This document shows positions 11,796-16,930 of a stretch of DNA of 64,000 nt, one piece after another. Position 1 is the stretch's first letter. Each line of letters starts with the position of its first letter. The stretch comes from Simplicispira metamorpha (GTDB lineage: Bacteria > Pseudomonadota > Gammaproteobacteria > Burkholderiales > Burkholderiaceae_C), in contig NZ_SLXH01000003.1 of assembly GCF_004341365.1 (NCBI RefSeq), positions 1-64,000 on the forward strand, in the 5' to 3' direction. The notes beneath the pieces are model-generated. The model saw only the letters and a program-made list of their open reading frames with translations, made no database searches and had not been told where the DNA came from. Position numbers and translations under genes: made by a program.

Positions 11796-12248
11796 ATGCA
11801 AATCATCCTGCTCGACAAGGTTGTGAACCTCGGTAACCTCGGCGACCTGGTCAAGGTCAAAGACGGCTACGCCCGCAACTTCCTGATCCCCACGGGCCGC
11901 GCCCGCCGTGCCACGGCAGCTGCCAAGGCCGAGTTCGAAGCCAAGCGCGCCGAACTGGAAAAAGCCGCTGCTGAGAAGCTGGCCCAGTGCCAAGCCGAAG
12001 GCGAAAAGATCGCCGGCAAGGTGTTCAAGCTGACGCAAAAGGCTGGTGTGGATGGCCGTCTGTTCGGTTCGGTCACCAACAGCGACATCGCTGAAGAGAT
12101 GAACAAGCAAGGCTACAAGGTTGCCAAATCGCAAATCCGTCTGCCCAATGGCCACATCAAGACCATTGGCGACAACACGGTCAGCGTGGCACTGCACACC
12201 GACGTGGTCGTGGAATTCACCGTTTCGGTGTACGGCGAAACCGCCTGA
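11796..12248 (+). CDS. rplI: 50S ribosomal protein L9
   Basis: L9 is a two-domain 50S protein bound near L1 that restrains ribosome slippage. The 150-residue product has the N-terminal domain ([20 protein letters not shown], with [13 protein letters not shown] at about 28-40), the long connecting helix rich in Ala, Glu and Lys (about 42-75) and the C-terminal domain ([15 protein letters not shown]). It ends the rpsF-priB-rpsR-rplI operon and is followed by a strong terminator. Confidence 0.98.
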
Positions 12249-12388: not shown

Positions 12389-14854
12389 ATGTCTGATGCT
12401 TTCATGCCCCCCGAGGGCGACTTTGCCCCGCCCTATGACCGCGAAATCTCGCAGCTGCGCGTGCCGCCGCATTCCATCGAGGCCGAGTCGAGCGTGCTCG
12501 GTGGCCTGCTGCTGGACAACAACGCCTGGGACCGCGTAGGCGATTTGCTGGTCGAGGACAACTTTTACCGCCACGAGCACCAGCTGATTTTTGCGGCCAT
12601 TGCCAAGCTGATCAACGCCAGCAAGCCCGCCGACGTGATCACCGTGTACGAGCAGCTGCAAAGCCTGGGCAAGGCCGAGGAAATAGGTGGCCTGGCCTAC
12701 CTGAACTCGCTGGCGCAGTACGTGCCCAGCGCTAGCAACATCCGCCGCTATGCCGAAATCGTGCGCGAGCGCTCCATCCTGCGCAAACTGGTGACGGCCA
12801 GCGACGAGATCGCCACCAACGCCTTCAACCCGCAGGGGCGGCCAGTGGACAAGATACTGGACGAGGCCGAGCAAAAAATCTTCAACATCGGCGAGGAAGG
12901 CTCGCGCATGAAGCAGGGCTTTCAGGCCATGGACACCCTGGTGGTCGATCTGCTGGACCGCGTGCAGGAGATGGCCGACAACCCCAACGACATCACCGGC
13001 GTGCCCACCGGTTTCATCGACCTCGATCGCATGACCTCGGGCCTGCAAGCGGGCGATATGGTGGTGCTGGCGGCGCGCCCGTCCATGGGCAAGGCGCAAC
13101 CGCTGGATGCGCAGGTACGCACCCGGGGTGGCTGGAAGCGCATGGGCGATCTGGAGGTGGGCGATGCCCTGGCCTCGGTGGACGGAAGCCCGTCCATCGT
13201 CACTGGCATCTTTCCGCAAGGGGTACGGCAGGTGTTTCGGGTGCGGTTTTCTGATGGCCGATCCGCTGAATGTTGCGCCGAGCATTTGTGGCGTGTGCTG
13301 TGCCGCCACTGGCCGCAGCCGCGCGTGCTCAGCACTGCGCAGTTGATGGCGCTGCTGGAGCGCAAACGCTACCAAAACCGCCTCTGGATAGAGTCGGCTT
13401 CGGGCGATTTTGGCCACCATGACCCCTTGCCCATCGACCCCTGGGTGCTGGGCAGTCTGCTGGGCGATGGCGGCCTGAGCGGCACTGGCACGGTGAAGTT
13501 TTCCACTGCCTCTGCCGAAATGCTGCAGCGCCTGCAAGAGCGTCTGGATGACGATCTGGAGGTGGTACATGACCAAGCCTACGACTACCGCGTGGTGCGC
13601 CGCGACCGCGCGCGTGTGAAAGGTTGGGTGGGCATGCAGCCCAACCCGCTGCGCGTGGCGCTGGAGGGCCTGCGCCTGTCGGGCCTGACCAGCGACCAGA
13701 AGTTCGTCCCACCGCTGTACCTGGAGGCCCACCGCGCAGCGCGCCTGGACTTGCTGCGCGGGCTGCTCGATACCGATGGCTGGGTGGAGCGCTGGGGCAG
13801 CGTGCGCTTTTGCACCACCAGCGCCCAGCTGGCGCAGGGTGTGGCCGCGCTGGCGCGCTCGCTGGGGGCGTGGTGCTCCATCGCGCAGAAGCAGCCGCAC
13901 TACACCAACGTGGCCGGGCAGCGGGTGCCGGGCTTGCCGGCCTATGTTTGCAACATTGCCCACCCAGAGCCGCAGTCGCTGTTTTTGCTGTCCGACAAGC
14001 AAGCGCGCGCGCCCCAGCAGTGGACGCGCCAGCGGCGCCTGACCATCAGCGCCATTGAGCCGGTGCGCCAGGCGCCCTGCCAGTGCATTGCCGTCAGCCA
14101 TCCGCAGCGCCTGTACATCACCAACGACGATGTGGTGACGCACAACACCGCCTTCGCGGTGAACATTGCCGAGCATGTGGCGCTCAATGAGGGCCTGCCA
14201 GTGGCCATTTTCTCGATGGAAATGGGGGCGGCGCAGTTGGCGGTGCGCGTGGTGGGTTCGATTGGCCGCATCGACCAGGGGCATTTGCGCACCGGCAAGC
14301 TGACCGATGACGAGTGGCCGCGCCTGACCGAGGCCATCGAAAAACTGCGCACCGTCTCGCTGCACATCGATGAAACCCCCGGTCTGACGCCCAGTGAGCT
14401 GCGCGCCAATGCCCGGCGCCTGGCGCGCCAGTGCGGCAAGCTGGGCCTGATTGTGGTGGACTACCTGCAGCTGATGAGCGGTTCGGCGGGCTCGCAAGGG
14501 GAAAACCGTGCCACCGAACTGGGCGAAATCTCGCGCGGTCTGAAGATGCTGGCCAAAGAGCTGCAATGCCCGGTGATTGCGCTGTCGCAGCTCAACCGCA
14601 GCGTGGAGCAGCGCACCGACAAGCGCCCGATGATGTCGGATTTGCGCGAATCGGGTGCGATTGAGCAGGATGCCGACATCATCATGTTCATCTACCGCGA
14701 CGATTACTACAACAAAGACAGCAAGGAGCCCAATGTGGCCGAGGTCATCATTGGCAAGCAGCGCAATGGCCCCACCGGCACCGTCAAGCTGTTCTTCCAG
14801 AAGTCGCAGACGCGCTTTGAAAGCCTGGCCATGGGGTCGAGCGACGATTTTTAA
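12389..14854 (+). CDS. dnaB: Replicative DNA helicase DnaB, interrupted by an in-frame intein
   Basis: DnaB is the hexameric 5'-3' replication fork helicase. The frame codes for 821 residues, about 350 more than the family. Removing residues 236-586 (the intein) leaves 470 residues with the N-terminal DnaB domain (PPHSIEAESSVLGGLLLD, about 29-130), the linker region and the RecA-like ATPase domain. Walker A RPSMGK-T is split by the intein exactly between Lys and Thr and is restored by splicing. Walker B LIVVDYLQLMSG and the DLRESGAIEQDADIIMFIYR region follow in the C-terminal part. The helicase can only bind ATP after splicing. The start follows CAAGGA and fits homologues. The gene lies downstream of rplI, as in related species. 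Confidence 0.97.
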   Translation: MSDAFMPPEGDFAPPYDREISQLRVPPHSIEAESSVLGGLLLDNNAWDRVGDLLVEDNFYRHEHQLIFAAIAKLINASKPADVITVYEQLQSLGKAEEIGGLAYLNSLAQYVPSASNIRRYAEIVRERSILRKLVTASDEIATNAFNPQGRPVDKILDEAEQKIFNIGEEGSRMKQGFQAMDTLVVDLLDRVQEMADNPNDITGVPTGFIDLDRMTSGLQAGDMVVLAARPSMGKAQPLDAQVRTRGGWKRMGDLEVGDALASVDGSPSIVTGIFPQGVRQVFRVRFSDGRSAECCAEHLWRVLCRHWPQPRVLSTAQLMALLERKRYQNRLWIESASGDFGHHDPLPIDPWVLGSLLGDGGLSGTGTVKFSTASAEMLQRLQERLDDDLEVVHDQAYDYRVVRRDRARVKGWVGMQPNPLRVALEGLRLSGLTSDQKFVPPLYLEAHRAARLDLLRGLLDTDGWVERWGSVRFCTTSAQLAQGVAALARSLGAWCSIAQKQPHYTNVAGQRVPGLPAYVCNIAHPEPQSLFLLSDKQARAPQQWTRQRRLTISAIEPVRQAPCQCIAVSHPQRLYITNDDVVTHNTAFAVNIAEHVALNEGLPVAIFSMEMGAAQLAVRVVGSIGRIDQGHLRTGKLTDDEWPRLTEAIEKLRTVSLHIDETPGLTPSELRANARRLARQCGKLGLIVVDYLQLMSGSAGSQGENRATELGEISRGLKMLAKELQCPVIALSQLNRSVEQRTDKRPMMSDLRESGAIEQDADIIMFIYRDDYYNKDSKEPNVAEVIIGKQRNGPTGTVKLFFQKSQTRFESLAMGSSDDF
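13094..14146 (+). mobile_element. Intein in DnaB Walker A motif, class 3 type with a LAGLIDADG homing endonuclease
   Basis: The 351-residue element starts with Ala (not Cys or Ser) and ends in THN before the extein Thr. A non-nucleophilic first residue together with Trp66 in block B (CAEHLW), Cys331 in block F (QCIAVSHPQ) and Thr349 in block G (VVTHN) forms the W-C-T triad that defines class 3 inteins, where the block F Cys starts splicing. Two dodecapeptide motifs of a LAGLIDADG endonuclease are present, LGSLLGDGG (about 119-127, Asp125) and LRGLLDTDG (221-229, Asp228), with catalytic Asp in both, so homing activity may be retained. The prototype class 3 intein is in the DnaB of a mycobacteriophage, so a phage origin is likely. 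Confidence 0.93.
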
Positions 14855-15066: not shown

Positions 15067-16899
15067 TTACAGCACCTCGCTGGCAAAGTCGGCCAGGCGC
15101 GAGCGTTCGCCGCGTGCCAGCGTGATGTGGCCGCTGTGTGGCCAGCCTTTGAAGCGGTCTACGGCAAAGGTCAGGCCCGAGGAGCCCTCGGTCAGGTAGG
15201 GCGTATCGATCTGCGCCAGGTTGCCCATGCAGATGATTTTGGTGCCCGGGCCGGCGCGGGTGATGAGCGTTTTCATCTGCTTGGGCGTGAGGTTTTGCGC
15301 CTCGTCGATGATGACGTACTTGTTCATGAAAGTGCGCCCGCGCATGAAGTTCATGCTCTTGATCTTGATGCGGCTGCGGATCAGCTCGTTGGTAGCCGCG
15401 CGCCCCCATTCGCCCGCGTTGCCGCCATCGCCCTTGGCCAGGAACTCCAGGTTGTCGTCCAGCGCGCCCATCCAGGGGCCCATTTTTTCTTCTTCGGTGC
15501 CGGGCAGAAAGCCGATGTCCTCGCCCACGCTCACGGTGGCGCGGGTCATGATGATTTCAGTGTAGCGGCGCTCGTCCAGCACCTGCGTCAGGCCCGCAGC
15601 CAGCGCCATCAGCGTCTTGCCGGTGCCTGCCGTGCCGGTCAGGGTGACGAAGTCGATGTCCGGGTCCATCAGCAGGTTGACGGCAAAGTTTTGCTCGCGG
15701 TTGCGGGTGGTCACGCCCCAGACGGCATTTTTGGCATGGCCGTAGTCTTTGAGGGTTTTCAGGACGGCGGTTTTGTCGCGGATTTCGCTCACGCGGGCGT
15801 ACAGGCTGGGCTCGCCGGGCGCTTCAAAATAGACAAACTGGTTGATCATCAGTTGCGCCACGATGGGGCCGCTGATGCGGTAGTAGGTGTGTGGGCCGCT
15901 TTGCCAGCTTTCTACCGCTTTGCCGTTGCGGCTCCAGAAGTCTGCGGGCAGGGCCAGCAGGCCCGAGTACAGCAGGTCGTCGTCTTCGAGGGCTTTGTCG
16001 TTCTGGTAGTCCTCGGCGGGCAGGCCCAGCGCGCGGGCCTTGACGCGCATATTGATGTCTTTGGACACCAGCACCACCTCGCGCGGCGCGTGCTGTTGGC
16101 GCAGGGCCTCAACCACGCCCAGGATCTGGTTGTCGGCCTTGCCCTGGGGCAGGCTGGTGGGCAGCTGGTAGTCCAGTGCCGCTGTTTGGAAGAACAGGCA
16201 GCCGCCCGCAGCGCGCTGACCGGTGGAATCCAGCTTGAGGCCCTTGCCGATGTCGGCGCCTTGTGTGGCGGCCAGCGCATCCAGCGAGCGGCTGACCTGG
16301 CGGCCATTGCGGGCCACTTCGGTCATGCCTTTTTTGTGCGCATCCAGCTCTTCGAGAACGATCATCGGCAGGTAGATGTCGTGTTCTTCAAAGCGGAACA
16401 GGCAGGTGGGGTCGTGCAGCAGCACGTTGGTGTCGAGCACGAACAGCTTTTTGGGGCCGGTGCCGCGGGGCTTGCGGCTGCGCGGTGCGGGTGCTGGCGT
16501 GGCGACTGCTGGGGTGGGCGTTGGGGTCGCGGCAGTGGGTGCGGCCAGCGGGGTGGCGACTTCGGTTGCTACCATCGGTGCGGCCGTGGCGCTGGTGCCG
16601 CGGCGGGGGCGCGTGCTGGTGGCGGCGGCTTGCGTTGCGGCGGTGCCGGTTGCGTTGGTGGTGCGGCGACCACGGCCTGATCGGGCTGAGGTGCTGCTGC
16701 GCACCGTGCTCTGGTCTGCACTGGCCGTGGGGCTGGCAACAGCGGCAGTTTCTGTGGATACAGCGGGTGTATCGACCGCCGCAGTAGCGGGGTGCTCAGT
16801 GGCTGCTGTGCGTGTGCTGGTGCGTTTGCGCGCGGGGGTGTTGTAGTCCTCGGGAGCCAGTAGGGCAGCGCGCCGGGTGGGGGCAGGGGGCAAGGGCAT
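15067..16899 (-). CDS. PIN domain-PhoH ATPase fusion
   Basis: The 610-residue product joins a PIN nuclease domain (LFVLDTNVLLHDPTCLFRFE, then LEELDAHKKG and GRQVSRSLDAL) to a C-terminal PhoH ATPase domain with Walker A GTAGTGKTLMALA and Walker B YVIIDEAQNLTPKQMK. PIN-PhoH (PhoH2-like) proteins couple ATP-driven RNA unwinding with RNA cleavage in studied actinobacterial members; the role in proteobacteria is unclear. An unusual N-terminal extension of about 150 residues is low-complexity Ala/Thr/Pro/Arg, probably disordered. The ATG at 16899 follows GAGG; only a TTG lies further out. The gene stands alone on the minus strand between terminators. Confidence 0.92.
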   Translation of the reverse strand: MPLPPAPTRRAALLAPEDYNTPARKRTSTRTAATEHPATAAVDTPAVSTETAAVASPTASADQSTVRSSTSARSGRGRRTTNATGTAATQAAATSTRPRRGTSATAAPMVATEVATPLAAPTAATPTPTPAVATPAPAPRSRKPRGTGPKKLFVLDTNVLLHDPTCLFRFEEHDIYLPMIVLEELDAHKKGMTEVARNGRQVSRSLDALAATQGADIGKGLKLDSTGQRAAGGCLFFQTAALDYQLPTSLPQGKADNQILGVVEALRQQHAPREVVLVSKDINMRVKARALGLPAEDYQNDKALEDDDLLYSGLLALPADFWSRNGKAVESWQSGPHTYYRISGPIVAQLMINQFVYFEAPGEPSLYARVSEIRDKTAVLKTLKDYGHAKNAVWGVTTRNREQNFAVNLLMDPDIDFVTLTGTAGTGKTLMALAAGLTQVLDERRYTEIIMTRATVSVGEDIGFLPGTEEEKMGPWMGALDDNLEFLAKGDGGNAGEWGRAATNELIRSRIKIKSMNFMRGRTFMNKYVIIDEAQNLTPKQMKTLITRAGPGTKIICMGNLAQIDTPYLTEGSSGLTFAVDRFKGWPHSGHITLARGERSRLADFASEVL

Positions 16900-16930
16900 G
16901 GTCAAAAGCCTCGGTATCAAGAGGTTCAAA

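Follow-up and report, generated by a model that had tools for sequence, protein, structure and literature searches.

The DnaB intein of mycobacteriophage Bethlehem is the prototype of the class 3 inteins. The class is defined by a Trp at position 12 of block B, a Cys at F:4 and a Thr at G:5, the WCT triplet (PMC3196547); its chemistry is described as established (PMC6195587, PMC7664689, PMC7891396) and, in one count of nr, 1701 class 3 inteins were found, 82.5% of them with LAGLIDADG motifs (PMC7891396). The Lys/Thr junction of the P-loop is reported as a classic intein site (PMC5050341; a slash marks the insertion point throughout), and mycobacteria are already known to carry class 3 inteins in the P-loop of their cellular DnaB (PMC6195587). 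The closest described systems, DnaBi1 of Mycobacterium smegmatis (dnaB-b, PDB 6bs8) and its M. leprae homologue, share with the intein of Simplicispira metamorpha the gene, the P-loop site, the WCT triplet, Ala1 and the His-Asn end, but they are mini-inteins (PMC5222942), whereas the S. metamorpha copy carries a full endonuclease. Moreover, DnaBi1 is reported to have Ser+1 and an Asp at B:7 (PMC6195587), in contrast to Thr+1 and a Cys at B:7 in S. metamorpha, where the insertion RPSMGK/T corresponds to the dnaB P-loop allele, site b of the same report. From the class 3 group as a whole, with which it has in common the triplet and the lack of a nucleophile at position 1, the S. metamorpha intein differs in sequence and host. 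The element is of a known kind; what is new here is a well-preserved example accompanied by empty and decayed siblings.

The window, which is the whole stretch of 64,000 nucleotides that was analysed, carries dnaB in an ordinary chromosomal setting, with a gene recognised by eye as ribosomal protein L9 upstream (11796-12248). Outside the insert the encoded protein is DnaB, as identified by TIGR00665 (E 5.8e-173) and by Pfam DnaB and DnaB_C. The insert occupies residues 236-586, is exactly 351 residues long, in frame and stop-free, and parts RPSMGK from TAFAVN, the junction falling between the Lys and the Thr of Walker A (Table 1). Frame and junctions agree with the first-pass annotation, which had described an in-frame insert of this length at this place, with Ala first and THN last.

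Table 1. Features of the S. metamorpha dnaB locus, in coordinates of the window.
Feature	Coordinates	Strand	Remarks and basis
dnaB precursor gene	12389..14854	+	precursor of 821 aa, spliced product predicted at 470 aa; no other clear DnaB_C gene in the genome
N-extein, 235 aa, Walker A RPSMGK at its end	12389..13093	+	Pfam DnaB N domain
Class 3 intein, 351 aa, AQPL...VVTHN	13094..14146	+	frame, 6bs8 alignment, relatives, AlphaFold2, Foldseek
Cys61, block B position 7	13274..13276	+	alignment to 6bs8 Asp62
Trp66, block B position 12 (W of WCT)	13289..13291	+	6bs8 alignment, relatives
Putative LAGLIDADG homing endonuclease domain, about residues 108-290, limits approximate	13415..13963	+	Pfam, AlphaFold2, Foldseek
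Asp125, first LAGLIDADG acidic residue	13466..13468	+	alignment of relatives
Asp228, second LAGLIDADG acidic residue	13775..13777	+	alignment of relatives
Cys331, block F position 4, predicted internal initiating nucleophile (C of WCT); Cys329 two residues earlier	14084..14086	+	6bs8 alignment, relatives
Thr349-His350-Asn351, block G: T of WCT, penultimate His, predicted cyclising Asn	14138..14146	+	6bs8 alignment, relatives
C-extein, Thr+1 (Walker A Thr) first, stop codon included	14147..14854	+	junctions, Pfam

The best solved relative of the insert was the M. smegmatis class 3 DnaB intein of PDB 6bs8 (E 1.1e-8), in which the WCT triplet is reported as W67, C118 and T137 (PMC6195587); W66, C331 and T349 of the S. 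metamorpha intein align on these same residues. Among 162 aligned relatives, C331, T349, H350 and N351 were each present in 162/162, and W66 in 157/162. The first position is Ala, as in 138/162 relatives, leaving no Cys, Ser or Thr nucleophile there, and block G ends in T349-H350-N351 followed by Thr at +1, as is characteristic of class 3. The triad that had been placed in blocks B, F and G from the letters alone, and the class 3 assignment built on it, are thus confirmed by comparison with a solved structure and with relatives. The Pfam search for Hint and LAGLIDADG domains succeeded by half: LAGLIDADG_3 matched the intein above its cut-off (E 5.9e-8), whereas Intein_splicing (PF14890) had no match in the S. 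metamorpha genome, despite the intein, and Hom_end_hint remained below threshold (12 bits, cut-off 32.1), so general Pfam models miss the splicing half. A phage family annotated as DNA primase (phrog_510) also matches the insert (E 7.7e-41). No other intein was found in the S. metamorpha genome, where LAGLIDADG_3 matches dnaB alone and P0001 matches nothing but this intein (G000). A literature search, with most subscription journals outside its coverage, returned no paper on an intein in Giesbergeria and none combining intein, DnaB, Betaproteobacteria and homing endonuclease.

The AlphaFold2 model of the intein, built on 58 aligned sequences, had a mean pLDDT of 95.5 and a pTM of 0.92. Searched by Foldseek, it matched PI-SceI across most of its length (E 1.4e-15, 17% identity) and 6bs8 across part of the splicing domain (E 1.8e-5), and the predicted structure contains the Hint fold expected of a class 3 intein. 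PI-SceI, the VMA intein, is the closest overall fold, the likeness lying in a Hint domain into which a LAGLIDADG endonuclease is inserted; it is, however, a class 1 intein.

We consider it very likely that the insert is a full-length class 3 intein of the DnaB Walker A motif, which would splice, may home and has spread between bacterial dnaB genes. By homology to the class 3 inteins that have been studied, Cys331 would attack the Lys235-Ala1 bond directly to form the first branched thioester, the N-extein would then be transferred to Thr+1, Asn351 would cyclise with the assistance of His350, and an O-to-N shift would leave an intact P-loop in a DnaB of 470 residues. The LAGLIDADG domain would cut intein-free dnaB around the conserved GK/T codons, and repair would copy the intein in. 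Since the P-loop is whole only after splicing, ATP binding by the helicase should await excision. No second clear dnaB was found by a DnaB_C search of the S. metamorpha assembly (3.78 Mb, 98.6% complete), in which one additional weak match, a 492-residue frame on another contig, fell below the cut-off; replication by this DnaB should therefore depend on splicing, an idea which the first-pass annotation had put forward and which stands as an expectation. It is extremely unlikely that the insert is not removed, dnaB being a pseudogene or tolerating it: in the only clear dnaB found the P-loop Lys would stay separated from the Thr, purifying selection acts on exteins and intein alike, and none of the splicing residues (W, C, T, H and N) is lacking.

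Both LAGLIDADG motifs retain their acidic residue, D125 in LLGDG and D228 in LLDTDG, as had been noticed before. The same Asp pair is kept in 66/78 bacterial dnaB inteins and missing in the other 12, two of which have Glu at the first position. In the sister intein, G019, D228 is replaced by Gly ('LLDQGG'), and in the G004 intein a net 52 residues are gone, the first Asp among them; the loss of D228 in the sister suggests that the endonuclease is decaying in the S. metamorpha lineage. When S. metamorpha was compared with G001, of the same genus, dN/dS was 0.14 for the whole intein, 0.19 for the endonuclease region and 0.08 for both the N-terminal splicing region and the exteins, values that are rough because several of the comparisons approach saturation in dS. 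A shortened C-extein was used here, since the full one runs through a further intein that G019 and G007 carry at a second dnaB site. Intein and exteins are under purifying selection, and at the sequence level the endonuclease domain appears to be under constraint, weaker than that on the splicing part. The sibling decay in G019 and G004 and the 12 copies lacking the Asp pair would also fit an endonuclease that no longer homes, the intein being inherited vertically and the intact pair being a recent relic; we regard this as a possible but minority reading, given that the S. metamorpha copy keeps both Asp residues, the predicted fold and purifying selection, and that most bacterial copies keep the pair as well.

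Of 26 genomes of the genus, 23 yielded a dnaB. The intein is present in five of these genes (G000, G001, G004, G007 and G019, the G007 copy being known from a contig end in L007), and the RPSMGKT site is empty in the remaining 18/23; a look for an empty dnaB in related strains was among the checks proposed in the first-pass annotation. Its presence is patchy: four changes were counted on the genus extein tree (24 rows, G007 left out), and equally few were obtained in 47-57 of 500 shuffles. In an order-wide sample, spread evenly over genomes of at least 90% completeness, 17/399 genomes, S. metamorpha included, matched the intein at E 1e-40 or better, the dnaB setting being confirmed for part of the 17. 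Among the matches listed, for which the named scan of genome contigs contributed the best 80 of 554 confirmed loci, dnaB inteins occur in Beta-, Gamma- and Alphaproteobacteria, Rokubacteria, Planctomycetota, Acidobacteria, Zixibacteria and others; the betaproteobacterial dnaB copies sampled are mostly 53-86% identical to the S. metamorpha intein, and those of Polynucleobacter about 40%. At three loci (L036, L085 and L102) the host frame is short or unusual or the endonuclease truncated; assembly errors or decaying alleles may account for this.

Other inserts were also observed in relatives. DnaB of L002, L006 and L007, from the same genus or family, carries a second intein downstream (MSDLRE/CVTGDTLVW...), apparently of class 1 by its Cys1; the S. 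metamorpha protein is uninterrupted at this MSDLRE site. In L012, L014 and L020, of the same genus, LAGLIDADG-bearing inserts were seen by eye in frames resembling the large subunit of ribonucleotide reductase.

The nearest relatives among the matches listed are betaproteobacterial dnaB inteins (G019 86%, G004 77%, L033 76%, G001 74%), while the best viral one among the matches listed, L021, recovered in two scans of viral contigs, reaches about 55%; 0/397 matching phage records were at 60% identity or more, and one scan of plasmids gave no match to the intein at that level. On these figures we rejected a direct and recent arrival from a phage, and the phage-to-host transfer proposed in the first-pass annotation is not supported as such for the S. 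metamorpha copy. The surrounding clade is indeed phage-rich, and phage DnaB inteins adjoin the bacterial dnaB group; with bacterial relatives at 86% and 76%, however, such an arrival is very improbable. In a tree of 117 inteins a single, weakly supported branch (45) separates the 78 bacterial dnaB inteins from the rest, and their nearest neighbours are the phage DnaB inteins L021, L133 and L186. This tree was made by a quick method from relatives of the S. metamorpha intein only, without a class 1 or 2 outgroup, and omits viral non-DnaB copies below 35% identity as well as inteins shorter than 280 or longer than 420 residues.

Spread among bacteria is the reading that we prefer, and intein and host gene give conflicting relationships. 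S. metamorpha and L033 share 76% of the intein and 63% of the exteins; with G001, of the same genus, the values are 74% and 90%. A more careful intein tree joins S. metamorpha, G019 and L033 (100/96) and nests the Nitrosomonadales copies in the Comamonadaceae group (96/98), unlike the extein tree, where a single clade (100/99) comprises 18 rows (Comamonadaceae, Sphaerotilaceae, Tepidimonas and unplaced relatives). Holding together the inteins of this 18-row clade was rejected by the AU test (p-AU 0.00015), as was holding the Dyella inteins with Lysobacteraceae (p 0.00085); holding together those of the S. metamorpha genus was not rejected (p-AU 0.134). The groups follow the extein tree, but they were chosen after both trees had been seen. 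Some of the tree rows derive from metagenome assemblies, and their labels could be wrong; the records of Dyella flagellata and Trinickia mobilis, however, are of strains, and the two share 81% of the intein and 55% of the exteins. Among the 75/78 bacterial dnaB rows usable for this comparison, intein identity exceeded extein identity in 1748/2775 pairs, including those of L085, whose extein identity is oddly low; since L085 crowds the top of the identity list, the case for horizontal movement rests on the trees and the AU tests. These sequence comparisons indicate that intein copies moved horizontally between the dnaB genes of different bacteria. An old phage ancestry followed by spread from bacterium to bacterium is possible, and we infer this direction of transfer; the deeper source is likely an older phage-borne clade that uses Gly-Lys/Thr or Gly-Lys/Ser sites in many proteins.

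The sites used by the clade were evaluated in a junction census of 178/209 loci, L110-L132 being left out together with eight further loci that were off-target or duplicate; both junctions were available at 169 loci, which gave 163 distinct cases. Lys precedes the intein in 155/163, with Gly before the Lys in 148/163, and the intein is followed by Thr in 144, Ser in 17 and Cys in 2. The strict Walker A pattern fits 126/163 junctions. Since the loci were fetched with patterns internal to the intein, the flanks were not selected for; the copies, however, are related to one another and not independent. The start AQP is found in 82/84 DnaB copies and in 36 of the 78 non-DnaB copies with flanks, 63 of which have Gly-Lys. 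Hosts were typed by Pfam for 20 of 84 non-DnaB loci and a family could be assigned at 16: terminase (3), PhoH, coupling protein, portal and DNA polymerase A (2 each), and AAA, AAA_24, RecD2, Helicase_C and PD-(D/E)XK nuclease (one each); the remaining four gave one SMC match below the cut-off and three endonuclease or Hint matches alone. The exceptions to the Gly-Lys/Thr or Ser rule are portal proteins and a few others. In the two family A DNA polymerases the intein lies at FRPFGK/T and RDLGK/TFNFAQIYG; this site is not a P-loop, the lysine being that of the O-helix which binds the incoming nucleotide. The census suggests a simple site rule for the invasion of unrelated proteins by class 3 inteins.

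Some single loci of the clade are worth recording. A related intein, of 297 residues and shortened after the first LAGLIDADG block, interrupts the P-loop of a coupling protein of TraD/TraG type in L017 (G001:C12), assigned by Pfam; G004:C3, listed alongside it, is a match to the intein probe, and the family assignment covers L017. The plasmid matches H42-H46 and L214 are 37% relatives from enterobacteria and one uncultured bacterium; H42 was typed as conjugative IncC, and the feature in H46 is named TraD. Next to dnaB in S. metamorpha, a gene that is PIN-PhoH-like by eye (15067-16929, minus strand) has an uninterrupted P-loop, GTAGTGKT; in a viral PhoH (L026) the same type of site is occupied by an intein of the clade.

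The B:7 position is usually Thr in class 1 inteins. In the 78 bacterial dnaB inteins it is Cys in 71, the position of Cys60 is Cys in 67 and that of Cys329 in 30. Class 3 inteins are described as generally lacking a conserved B:7 residue, those characterised having Gly or Asp, and in the split AceL NrdHF class 3 intein a B:7 Ser appears to contact or position the N-scissile bond (PMC7891396); splicing of M. smegmatis DnaBi1 is reported to be inhibited by H2O2, with the catalytic Cys forming a disulfide (PMC6195587). Oxidation or metal binding at Cys60/Cys61 and Cys329/Cys331 could pause splicing, so that DnaB activation would sense stress. The frequency of Cys60 and of the B:7 Cys and the two precedents speak for such conditional splicing; the B:7 Cys may, however, serve only to position the bond, the class in general has no conserved residue there, and Cys329 is kept in fewer than half of the copies. 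We hold it to be rather unlikely, yet, as a B:7 Cys would put a second thiol near the catalytic Cys331, a redox or metal switch is worth testing. A broader proposal, which we rate as unlikely and advance as speculation, is that this family of dnaB inteins would be a redox or metal switch on replication unlike the mycobacterial one, Cys61, often with Cys60, being placed next to the scissile bond and locking Cys331 through a disulfide or a metal, and that the rule of invasion would be the Gly-Lys/Thr or Ser codons at a nucleotide-binding lysine and not one fold; codons rather than fold are suggested since the triplet is also occupied in the family A DNA polymerases.

For S. metamorpha, the finding means that an essential helicase should depend on protein splicing. 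Within one genus, and at one dnaB site, empty sites occur together with an intact, a point-mutated and a partly deleted endonuclease, which makes this genus a good system to study homing, decay and conditional splicing outside mycobacteria.
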